Origin: a virus
Direction: 5' to 3' (one strand)
IMG/VR virus record: IMGVR_UViG_3300031537_000001
Coordinates: 1-64,000 of that record
Length of the DNA stretch: 64,000 nucleotides
The notes under the pieces are model-generated. The model ran no database searches and was not told where the DNA came from. It saw nothing but the letters and a program-made list of their open reading frames with translations. The number at the start of each line of letters is the position of its first letter. The stretch's first letter is position 1. Of the stretch, positions 18,810-26,500 are shown piece by piece. A program made the position numbers and the translations under genes.

Positions 18810-19028
18810 ATGGATAGAAGTGAACATTTACAATGGTGTAAAGATAGAGCAAATGAATATGTTGATATGGGAGATATGCAGCAAGCATTTGCGAGTTTTC
18901 AAAGTGATATGAGCAAGCACCCTGAAACTGCCAATCACATGGCGTTAGAAATGGGGACAATGCTACTTATATCTGGTAATTTATCAAATGCTTATCAAAT
19001 GAGAAAATGGATTAATGGTTTTAATTAG
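18810..19028 (+). CDS. Conserved phage small protein (72 aa)
   Basis: The 72-residue sequence MDRSEHLQWCKDRANEYVD...QMRKWINGFN belongs to a small helical family I recognise from phages of many hosts (pattern RSEHLxWCKxRAxEYV, HPETANH, GNLSNAxQMRKxIxGFN). The function is unknown. It lies just before the first structured RNA of motif class A. Confidence 0.8.
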   Translation: MDRSEHLQWCKDRANEYVDMGDMQQAFASFQSDMSKHPETANHMALEMGTMLLISGNLSNAYQMRKWINGFN

Positions 19029-19041
19029 TCTAATTTAGTCT

Positions 19042-19202
19042 GTTTTGTACTCAACAAAACTATCCAGTAAGCTACTGGCCTTGTTGATGGATTCTTAGAG
19101 TAAACGAATCCTGTCTTTTTAAGATATTATTATACAAACCCTCAGAGTTGAAATACTCATGGTGATATCGTTAAATCAATTTAATTGATTACTAATTGTA
19201 TA
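19042..19202 (+). ncRNA. Structured RNA, copy 1 of the CCAGTAAG-hairpin class
   Basis: Within a 207-base gene gap. Stems in order: GTTTTGT/ACAAAAC (19,042/19,054), CCAG-taagcta-CTGG (19,064-19,078), GGATTC/GAATCC (19,089/19,106), and a closing helix TATACAA/TTGTATA (19,131/19,196) enclosing GAGT/ACTC and AATCAAT/ATTGATT. The block ACTATCCAGTAAG...CTGGCC (19,059-19,080) recurs at 23,562-23,583 after a similar TTGTAC hairpin, so this is a repeated RNA element rather than chance folding. Confidence 0.6.
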
Positions 19203-19235: not shown

Positions 19236-19478
19236 ATGAAAACAATTAAAATCAACAACTCAAAAGAAGCATCAAAATATAATAAAGAATGCTGGAAAAG
19301 AACAAACGCTAATAAAACAGGCAGCACTTATATGCCTGTAAAGAAAGAATTTATTTCCTTTTTCAAACATAATAACATTGAGATTAATGTAGATGAAATT
19401 CAATCATGTACAATGGTTTCTCAATTATTGGAAGCGGAAATAATAACGAAAACAGAAAAATATACACTAATATTTTAG
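19236..19478 (+). CDS. Unknown small protein (80 aa)
   Basis: An 80-residue Lys/Asn-rich protein, MKTIKINNSKEASKYNKEC..., preceded by the leader AACTAACTAAAAATTTGC that recurs in part at 19,552. Function unknown. Confidence 0.55.
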   Translation: MKTIKINNSKEASKYNKECWKRTNANKTGSTYMPVKKEFISFFKHNNIEINVDEIQSCTMVSQLLEAEIITKTEKYTLIF

Positions 19479-21540: not shown

Positions 21541-21603
21541 ATAAGTTCATTGATATTATTTCAAAAGTTTGTTTGGACGTGGGTTCGATTCCCATCAGCT
21601 CCA
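21541..21603 (+). ncRNA. ssrA: Permuted tmRNA, acceptor piece (3' half)
   Basis: The segment GTTTGGACGTGGGTTCG (21,570-21,586) and ATTCCCATCAGCTCCA (21,588-21,603) reproduce the tmRNA T-arm and 3' acceptor strand: T-stem GTGGG/CCCAT, T-loop TTCGATT, acceptor strand CAGCTCC and discriminator A. CCA is not encoded. Only 60 bases separate it from the upstream terminator, so no 5' half can precede it. TATTATTT (21,554-21,561) can pair with AAGTAATA (21,847-21,854) of the coding piece, reforming helix P2. The 5' boundary is estimated. Confidence 0.8.
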
Positions 21604-21821
21604 CATATGGGGTGTTTTTGGTTGATTTTATATTTAAAGCTAAACGAATACTAGTATAAGTTTAGGAAAGGGTATAAATGAAGTGAAAATTCGTTGTAAC
21701 ATGTACCAATAGTGCGAACACCTCGCCTGCATCGATTTCGCCAATTGATAATGAATGTTGATCTGAATTAACAGGGATTTTGAGGAAGTTACGGTACTTC
21801 CAACATTCATTTTTAAAACAT
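21604..21821 (+). other. Intervening spacer of the permuted tmRNA gene
   Basis: About 218 bases between the mature 3' and 5' ends, with no convincing gene. It holds stems CTAAAC/GTTTAG (near 21,640-21,665), GCGA/TCGC (near 21,714-21,726), and AATGAATGTTG/CAACATTCATT (11 bp, near 21,750-21,811) enclosing GGAAGT/ACTTCC. It starts with TGGGGTGTTTTTGGTT, an imperfect second copy of the tmRNA 5' end, possibly a relic of the duplication that permuted the gene. Confidence 0.55.
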
Positions 21822-21966
21822 GGGGCTGATTTTGGTTTTGACAGCAAAGTAATAGAAGTAAAGGAGAGCTTATTAGCTGTGTAAACGGCAACATAATTAA
21901 TTTATTTGATAGGAAACTAGCAATGGTTGCCTAACAACGAGACTGAGGGAAGCGAAAGTTCCCTCA
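21822..21966 (+). ncRNA. ssrA: Permuted tmRNA, coding piece with tag reading frame
   Basis: GGGGCTGATTTTGGTTTTGA (21,822-21,841) followed by CAGC matches the universal tmRNA 5' end (GGGGCUGAUUCUGGAUUCGACAGC). GGGGCTG pairs in all 7 positions with CAGCTCC of the upstream acceptor piece. A frame GNIINLFDRKLAMVA ends in TAA at 21,932-21,934; this resembles plastid and cyanobacterial degradation tags more than the ...NYALAA tags of ordinary bacteria. GCAA/TTGC around the tag end and an 8-bp hairpin TGAGGGAA/TTCCCTCA (about 21,943-21,966) follow. It would rescue stalled ribosomes using host SmpB. The 3' boundary is estimated. Confidence 0.78.
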
Positions 21967-21969
21967 CAT

Positions 21970-22042
21970 TGAGAAATAACTCAGTTGGTAGAGTGACACG
22001 CTGTTAACGTGTAAGTCGTAGGTTCGAGTCCTACTTTCTCAG
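21970..22042 (+). tRNA. tRNA-Asn (anticodon GUU)
   Basis: A full cloverleaf of 73 nt: acceptor TGAGAAA/TTTCTCA, D-arm CTC...GAG with loop containing GTTGG, anticodon stem ACACG/CGTGT with loop CTGTTAA (GUU, U33 present), T-arm GTAGG-TTCGAGT-CCTAC. CCA is not encoded. It lies 4 bases after the tmRNA coding-piece hairpin, so both may be processed from one transcript. Confidence 0.92.
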
Positions 22043-23005: not shown

Positions 23006-23040
23006 AAACATTAAATCCTAAACTTGAAGATTAAACAAGT

Positions 23041-23156
23041 TAAACTCTCATCCAATTTGCGGGTTAAATATGTAGAGGTGCTCTTAGTTATGTACAGACG
23101 ACGGTGAGACTGAAAAGAAGTGATACAGTTAGAGATAGCAACCCTATGAGAGTTTA
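23041..23156 (+). ncRNA. Closed-helix structured RNA 2
   Basis: TAAACTCTCAT (23,041-51) pairs perfectly with ATGAGAGTTTA (23,146-56). Inside are GGGTT/AACCC (23,061/23,140), the hairpin AGAG-gtg-CTCT (23,074-84) and ACTG/CAGT (near 23,108-23,130), giving a multi-branched fold. No reading frame spans it. Confidence 0.6.
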
Positions 23157-23418: not shown

Positions 23419-23547
23419 ATGAAATATAAATCAATTAAAGTGTGTTGTAATATTATTAAAACTACAACATCTTCGAGAGAAAAATTAATTGCTCAATTTT
23501 TACTATTAAGATTGATTAATAAAGGTATACGTAAAGACATTAATTAA
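23419..23547 (+). CDS. Unknown small protein (42 aa)
   Basis: A 42-residue basic, helical frame, MKYKSIKVCCNIIKTTTSSR.... A promoter-like TATATTTG lies only 2 bases before the ATG (23,409-23,416), so either the message is leaderless or the box is coincidental. The upstream 100 bases in the same frame use a TTG start and look non-coding. Confidence 0.4.
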   Translation: MKYKSIKVCCNIIKTTTSSREKLIAQFLLLRLINKGIRKDIN

Positions 23548-23550
23548 AGA

Positions 23551-23710
23551 GTTGTTGTACAACTATCCAGTAAGTTCCTGGCCAATTTAACTGTCAATGA
23601 CTGTGTTAGGTTGAGAAATTTAACCTCACCAACTACTTAGGTATTGGTACAGATGAAAACGAGGTGAATGGAGTTAGCTGTTGAGACTCCATAGAATAAA
23701 GTATCTAAGT
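23551..23710 (+). ncRNA. Structured RNA, copy 2 of the CCAGTAAG-hairpin class
   Basis: After a GTTGTACAAC palindromic hairpin comes ACTATCCAGTAAG...CTGGCC (23,562-23,583), matching copy 1 at 19,059-19,080. Further stems are GGTT/AACC near 23,609-23,625, a 9-bp closing helix ACTTAGGTA/TATCTAAGT (23,635/23,702) and the inner hairpin TGGAGT/ACTCCA (23,669/23,686). The conserved head with a divergent tail suggests one RNA family. Confidence 0.6.
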
Positions 23711-23736: not shown

Positions 23737-23809
23737 AATACAAACAAGGTGGCCCGTGAAACTTTGAAACATAAAAGGACCGGAAAATGTTCCTCTATCT
23801 GTTTGTATT
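23737..23809 (+). ncRNA. Closed-helix structured RNA 5
   Basis: AATACAAACA (23,737-46) pairs perfectly with TGTTTGTATT (23,800-09). The 53-base interior is G-rich for this genome (AGGTGGCCCGTG, AGGACCGG), suggesting further conserved structure. Confidence 0.5.
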
Positions 23810-23813
23810 GGCA

Positions 23814-23877
23814 GCTAAATAAGTTTGTGGTTTATCCAACTTTTAATGGGAAGGGATCTACGAAACAATTATTTAGC
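23814..23877 (+). ncRNA. Closed-helix structured RNA 6
   Basis: GCTAAATAA (23,814-22) pairs with TTATTTAGC (23,869-77), extended by GTTTGT against ACGAAAC with a bulge. It starts 5 bases after element 5, so the two could be arms of one larger RNA. Confidence 0.5.
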
Positions 23878-23903
23878 ATTCAAATATGAAAGTATTTGTC
23901 TTA

Positions 23904-26070: not shown

Positions 26071-26400
26071 ATGAAACGCACAATTTTTATTCTAGTAGTT
26101 GCTTTTACAATAATGGCTTCTAGCTGTAAGGATAAAGTAACTATAAATCCGATTGTAGGAGGTTGGGAATATGTTGATGATCTTAATGATATAACATTTT
26201 TATTTACTGAAGAAGGACAGTTTACATATGCAAATACAGAATTAAATGTGTATGAAACCGGAACTTATGAAGTAATGGATGATCATGTAATAATTTATTT
26301 GGGTTACGCTACTTTAGATTATAAATTTAGAATAGAAAACAATAAATTATTTATTATTACTGAGTTCAGTAATGCATATGAATTCATAAGATTTTTATAA
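26071..26400 (+). CDS. Lipoprotein, lipocalin-like
   Basis: The 109-residue protein starts with a signal peptide ending in the lipobox MASSC (Cys19), followed by KDK, near the K-(D/E) pattern of Bacteroidota surface lipoproteins. The mature part, with GGWEYVDDLNDITFLFTEEGQFTY and later GTYEVMDDHVIIYLG, has the strand pattern of small lipocalin-like domains. Expressed early and exported, it could mask a receptor and block superinfection, as other phage lipoproteins do; that role is inference. Confidence 0.75.
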   Translation: MKRTIFILVVAFTIMASSCKDKVTINPIVGGWEYVDDLNDITFLFTEEGQFTYANTELNVYETGTYEVMDDHVIIYLGYATLDYKFRIENNKLFIITEFSNAYEFIRFL

Positions 26401-26423: not shown

Positions 26424-26500
26424 ACTCGACTAAGCGAGTATAAATAGGTGTTAAGCTTAGTGCGTTGAAAAGGTCACATTAATAATTAATACATATAAAA

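Follow-up and report, generated by a model that had tools for sequence, protein, structure and literature searches.

The stretch of DNA analysed here (64,000 nucleotides; hereafter the window) is part of a 93-kb IMG/VR virus record. Its terminase, portal and capsid proteins match phage families in PHROGs, and the capsid shares 47% identity with its counterpart in Cellulophaga phage phi14:2. Since the taxonomy of phi14:2, and of the next capsid matches whose taxonomy was read, is Crassvirales, the window phage is crAss-like as judged from protein similarity; crAss-like phages are among the most abundant human gut viruses. The sequence TATCCAGTAAGNNNCTGGCC occurs exactly twice in the window, on the + strand at 19061-19080 and 23564-23583, compared to 0.02 expected occurrences in shuffled sequence, and no further copy was found in the window even when 3 mismatches were allowed. 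Thus, the two copies 4.5 kb apart that the original prediction described are both present. The 8-mer CCAGTAAG was not significant by itself; the significance of the repeat comes from the longer pattern, together with 77 exact-pattern loci elsewhere and covariation. We refer to the repeated element as element A.

Copy 1 sits between ORFs 18810-19028 and 19236-19478, and neither copy lies in a protein frame. The stop of the upstream ORF (18810-19028, + strand, 72 aa) is located 14 nt before the start of copy 1, which opens with a hairpin identified from sequence and by stem search (GTTTTGT-ACTCA-ACAAAAC; 19042-19060, +). This hairpin abuts an invariant core (19061-19079, +) composed of a UAU linker, the hairpin CCAG-UAAGCUA-CUGG, whose stem covaries in relatives, and a C. 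The core is followed by a pseudoknot region (19080-19111, +) defined by family-wide covariation of its stems S1 and S2: S2 pairs GGATTC (19089-19094) with GAATCC (19106-19111), while S1 is weak (TTG/TAG or CTT/GAG). By eye, an alternative 7-bp pairing of TCAACAA (19051-19057) with TTGTTGA (19081-19087) can also be drawn. Copy 2 has a corresponding upstream hairpin (AGTTG-TTGTA-CAACT; 23550-23564, +; sequence and stem search) and core (UAU linker, CCAG-UAAGUUC-CUGG hairpin and C; 23564-23582, +; sequence and covariance model R1). Stem search gave no confident S1/S2 in copy 2, where the family pseudoknot is weak or absent, and its tail (23583-23612, +) can instead form the hairpin AATTTAAC/GTTAGGTT. 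Model R1, which was built from 47 copies, matched copy 1 at 19034-19110 (36.5 bits, E 7e-6) and copy 2 at 23546-23615 (33.7 bits, E 3e-5), both being among the model's own sequences.

Several other noncoding RNAs lie near the two copies. A Pistol self-cleaving ribozyme (Rfam RF02679, 55.2 bits; 26424-26478, +) is found 24 nt past the stop of ORF 26071-26400, on the same strand as copy 1 and in a similar placement. Module D (AACTCTCATCCAA...GCAACCCTATGAGAGTT; 23039-23154, +) lies upstream of copy 2 and recurs upstream of the motif in relatives; the module (CTCTCATCCAA...GCAACC...TGAGAG; also at L044:4710-4800) often starts directly behind a stop codon, ahead of the motif. Between the two copies is a permuted tmRNA (RF04321, 52 bits; 21545-21934) with a tRNA-Asn next to it at 21970, and positions 23738-23882 hold two more hairpin-rich noncoding elements (ATACAAACA...TGTTTGTAT and the stretch that follows).

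Further copies were looked for in related phages, as their lack would have spoken against the element, and the exact pattern CTATCCAGTAAGNNNCTGG was found at 77 loci in IMG/VR, at least two of which lie inside ORFs and are chance matches, while nearly all others share the flanking architecture. Relaxed scans also picked up copies in which UAUCC is preceded by A or G, and others with compensated core stems (CUAG/CUAG in L010; CCUG/CAGG in L153, L154, L156 and L160; CCGG/CCGG in L159); most matches of the relaxed stem scan were chance, L010 being the only real one of that scan. Among carrier records of 45-177 kb, R1 mostly found a single copy; the window's record, its relative G029 and G009 have two each. 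The larger carriers are mostly uncultured crAss-like phages, and a homologue of the window's terminase was present in 25 of the 31 carrier records tested, with 26-56% identity over the main matches. R1 gave no match in six GenBank Crassvirales records, and BLAST against GenBank phages returned weak matches only, with no convincing copy in those checked. We also considered a bacterial chromosomal element, but the single match in genome_contigs lies inside a coding sequence and was rejected as chance. In four records (L001, L003, L041 and L054) copies of the motif stand in tandem, exactly 81 nt apart, with no spacer.

Across the family, element A consists of a variable upstream hairpin, the UAU linker, a 4-bp hairpin and then usually an H-type pseudoknot. 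The 3' strand of the upstream stem abuts the core, and all seven of its modelled pairs change on both sides. Its commonest class is GUAUYG-stem-UUYCUUUAACC-stem, with UUYCUUUAACC as the loop; there are at least three other classes, and the window copies carry short TTGTAC hairpins. Hence the TTGTAC hairpin proposed to precede the conserved head is real in both window copies but is not a property of the family. The CCAG/CTGG hairpin with a 7-nt loop starting TAAG was found as predicted (TAAGCTA in copy 1, TAAGTTC in copy 2), and in the family this core stem, with loop UAAGYUD, is 100% paired and shows compensatory changes. Thirteen columns of the R1 alignment are invariant, in part by construction, since the collecting pattern fixed most of them. 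Among 67 non-redundant copies the mean pseudoknot score was 17.1, compared to 9.0 ± 1.1 in dinucleotide shuffles, and about forty distinct S1/S2 combinations occurred, with both stems covarying. The tail, expected to be a series of further stems of differing sequence, is therefore usually a pseudoknot; copy 1 shows it clearly and copy 2 only weakly. Recurrence outside protein frames in many related phages and compensatory changes in three structural parts uphold the proposed selection for an RNA motif, and element A as a conserved and covarying structured-RNA family of about 85 nt is well supported.

The near-total invariance of UAUC..GUAAG..C points to ligand or protein binding, catalysis or a specific tertiary fold. 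The loop and linker are near-invariant across phages whose terminases are only about 26-56% identical to that of the window, which would fit an element that binds a conserved host or phage protein and serves in trans, or as a signal for localisation or packaging. However, no linked protein family was identified, and such a role would leave the strict cis placement of A beside RNA-end modules (see below) unexplained; we consider this quite improbable. A riboswitch, one of the functions originally suggested, found no support, as A has no associated gene class and often lies 3' of genes or before ribozymes.

Copies of element A are intercistronic or noncoding, lie outside ORFs and are mostly co-directional with the upstream gene. 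A quarter (25%) of 72 copies start within 20 nt of a same-strand stop codon, compared to none of 41 copies of module C, none of 11 of module B and none of 23 of the second pseudoknot F, all three of which are described below. Bacteroidota-type promoter motifs were not enriched upstream of A, and A is therefore probably the final part of the upstream unit's transcript. A host promoter was rejected on the same grounds. Other candidate origins were discarded as well: protein coding, as no substantial same-strand ORF runs across the copies; a stop-codon readthrough pseudoknot, as no frame continues downstream; an attC-like recombination site, as the box-like sequences of copy 2 are a coincidence of its self-complementary stem; and membership in a tRNA, tmRNA or GOLLD RNA, which position excludes. 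Since A often starts directly behind the last stop codon, ahead of a long untranslated structured RNA, and since most records carry one copy, it could be imagined as a put-like RNA-polymerase-binding antiterminator that shields untranslated stretches from Rho. This is very improbable given that an intrinsic terminator follows A at once in two loci (L005, L062), that downstream ribozymes would sever A from the RNA, and that no promoter signal lies close upstream.

Comparison with known RNA families gave no relative of element A. An Rfam scan of the window, riboswitches included, gave no credible match on A (at gathering score, or with E clearly below 1), and a literature search found no paper describing the family. 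Hatchet (RF02678) did not match A in the window scans and was found only downstream of it; Pistol (RF02679) did not match either, the window's own Pistol lying elsewhere; and twister (RF03160) gave no match, A being devoid of the UAA / UNCCAAG / GAGNG anatomy. These three, the last as twister-P1, share phage loci and strand with A, yet A matches none of their models. A also lies outside the region matched by the 3' domain of GOLLD (RF02032): it is located about 465 nt upstream of that domain in G006 and upstream of it in other carriers, and is also present without GOLLD, which makes it a separate module. As every test of membership in a known family was negative, we regard family A as new; its mechanism may be of a known type.

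The same searches showed A to be one module within a larger noncoding-RNA locus of the phages that also holds ribozymes. According to Rfam, Pistol occurs in 4 and twister-P1 (below the Rfam cut-off, E ~1e-12) in 2 of 26 carrier records, no more than about 3 kb from A and on its strand. In stretches of 3 kb with A in the middle, Rfam detected Pistol and GOLLD in three each, the GOLLD matches being below cut-off (E 1e-20 to 1e-31), and Hatchet in two. The order in G006 is A, about 465 nt, the GOLLD 3' domain and Pistol 5 nt beyond; in other carriers module C replaces Pistol after GOLLD, according to module maps based on short regexes whose GOL1, GOL2 and Tw labels are only indicative. In the crAss-like phage L169, GOLLD and Pistol lie on the - strand (638-1036 and 571-632), with Pistol starting 5 nt past the GOLLD 3' end, which suggests that GOLLD ends are made by a ribozyme. 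The size of A, its few invariant unpaired nucleotides, its pseudoknot and the Pistol, twister and Hatchet near it on the same strand together recall the discovery of pistol and hatchet and raise the possibility that A is a small self-cleaving ribozyme of a new kind in its own right, cutting for example in the invariant UAU linker and, with the downstream ribozymes, excising short RNAs from a polycistronic transcript. We regard this as rather unlikely: A usually stands directly beside another ribozyme-like module and would be redundant, its upstream-hairpin classes differ widely, and it matches no Rfam ribozyme.

Hatchet is a ribozyme class established by experiment. Its cleavage site, like that of twister, lies near the 5' side of the ribozyme, and that of HDV ribozymes is their 5' end. 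In a pattern search of the 230 nt 3' of A, module C followed 34 of 93 copies, module B 19 and a Hatchet pattern 3, and 37 copies had no recognised module; the patterns overlooked one in several of these (e.g. L036, L068), and a few copies run straight into the next ORF (L028). B, C or Hatchet comes immediately after A, or after A and the second pseudoknot, F. A third leader type, with a terminal hairpin and the loop region GGTGAGAACC, is likewise followed by B (L007), C (L041, L054) or Hatchet (L127, L051). The Hatchet of L175 scores 81.5 bits, over the Rfam cut-off, and lies about 56 nt 3' of A, while that of L177 is near the cut-off and right after A; in L115 the Hatchet pattern falls inside A, and the true start is given by the Rfam alignment. 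Furthermore, in L005 and L062 a strong intrinsic terminator starts about 36 nt past the core hairpin of A, and in L026 and L048 A precedes tmRNA.

Module B lies directly 3' of copy 1 (19123-19202, +), as determined from the alignment and pair counts, and in the window comprises P1 (GATAT/ATATC), P2 (TATACAA/TTGTATA), P3 (ACC/GGT) and P4 (ATCA/TGAT), with CTAA in J4/2 and a predicted cut site before 19123. Of its 24 pairs 17 are double-changed, and 93.6% of cells are paired, a value that no shuffle reached. The module has the nested double pseudoknot P1-P2-P3-P1'-P4-P2' of the HDV-like topology, and a near-invariant C and A before P2' fit the C-N-R-A of J4/2; a P1.1 pairing is not evident from sequence, and no Rfam HDV model matched the window module. 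These features make module B a candidate unlisted HDV-like ribozyme that is, as far as can be told, previously undescribed. It occurs in the window, where it stands alone, and in L007, L017, L043, L131 and others, and in several phages it flanks GOLLD on the 5' side. Module C (e.g. L044:4923 onwards, L055:7090 onwards and many others) has the order P1-UAA-P2-P4 with a UCCCAAG loop-P2'-GAGGG-P1', which is twister anatomy with a hypervariable extra stem. Its flanking P1 covaries and reaches 3.55 bp, compared to 2.52 ± 0.16 with partners shuffled, and the module resembles the twister in L171. No Rfam model, twister included, matched module C, which we propose as a candidate unlisted twister-variant ribozyme. 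Some copies of C carry a module E (GTGGATATAAAGACTTCTT...AAACCACAATGATTAA) nested in their P4 loop (L055:7272-7446).

The constant position of A 5' of three different ribozyme-type modules could indicate a folding insulator or accessory domain that prevents the ribozyme from mispairing with the upstream message, and the P0 hairpins of Hatchet take an equivalent place. In our judgement this is unlikely, because two copies of A precede intrinsic terminators, others precede no recognised ribozyme, and an insulator would not need an invariant core. The simplest feature shared by the ribozyme-type modules and the terminators is that A lies where an RNA 3' end is formed. Since Hatchet cleavage falls at the 5' side of the ribozyme (PMC4604424), the leader, including A, would become the 3' end of the upstream RNA. 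The hairpin P0 stands just 5' of the cut in about 90% of Hatchets (PMC4604424). Like A, P0 is a structured RNA just 5' of the cut that stays on the 5' product (PMC4604424); unlike A, which has an invariant core and a pseudoknot, it has no sequence conservation, nor is it common to Hatchet, HDV-topology and twister-like modules and terminators.

As A usually lies just 5' of self-cutting or look-alike modules, it is probably the tail of the upstream cleavage product, and as it stands where an RNA 3' end is made, we favour, with less than even confidence, a cis-acting pseudoknot that forms the 3' terminus of the upstream RNA and caps it at an end generated by a ribozyme or terminator. Hatchet, B or C, the latter two as predicted from their folds, would cut just 3' of A, and the upstream RNA would then end in the structure of A (with F). 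The stacked pseudoknots at the new end would block 3'-to-5' exonucleases and so stabilise the upstream mRNA, and cutting would release GOLLD, tmRNA or another noncoding RNA downstream.

In tobamoviruses and related plant viruses, the upstream pseudoknot domain of the 3' end is a stacked chain of H-type pseudoknots. This is a resemblance only, with no sequence relation established; A occurs in phage, and no tRNA-like structure was found with it. The main weaknesses of the 3'-end cap are that about a third of A copies have no recognised neighbour, that the tail of copy 2 is degenerate, and that the invariance of the core exceeds what a simple exonuclease block needs. Moreover, A is coupled to the downstream RNA as tightly as to the upstream gene, so a role on the 5' side is conceivable.

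Three unrelated ribozyme-type folds swapping behind one leader point to RNA cutting as the selected function. It is possible, though we hold it more tentatively than the cap itself, that Crassvirales possess a plug-in RNA-end system, in which a pseudoknot tail and an interchangeable ribozyme (a Hatchet, a twister variant or an HDV-like ribozyme of a new type) cut polycistronic RNA, cap its 3' end and free GOLLD, tmRNA or other noncoding RNAs. Altogether, these data reveal a folded RNA with a nearly invariant core, without an Rfam entry, across very diverse crAss-like phages, and provide in modules B and C two strong candidates for unlisted ribozyme variants. Moreover, the position of element A opens a way to test what purpose the Pistol, Hatchet, twister and HDV-like ribozymes and the GOLLD RNAs of phages serve.
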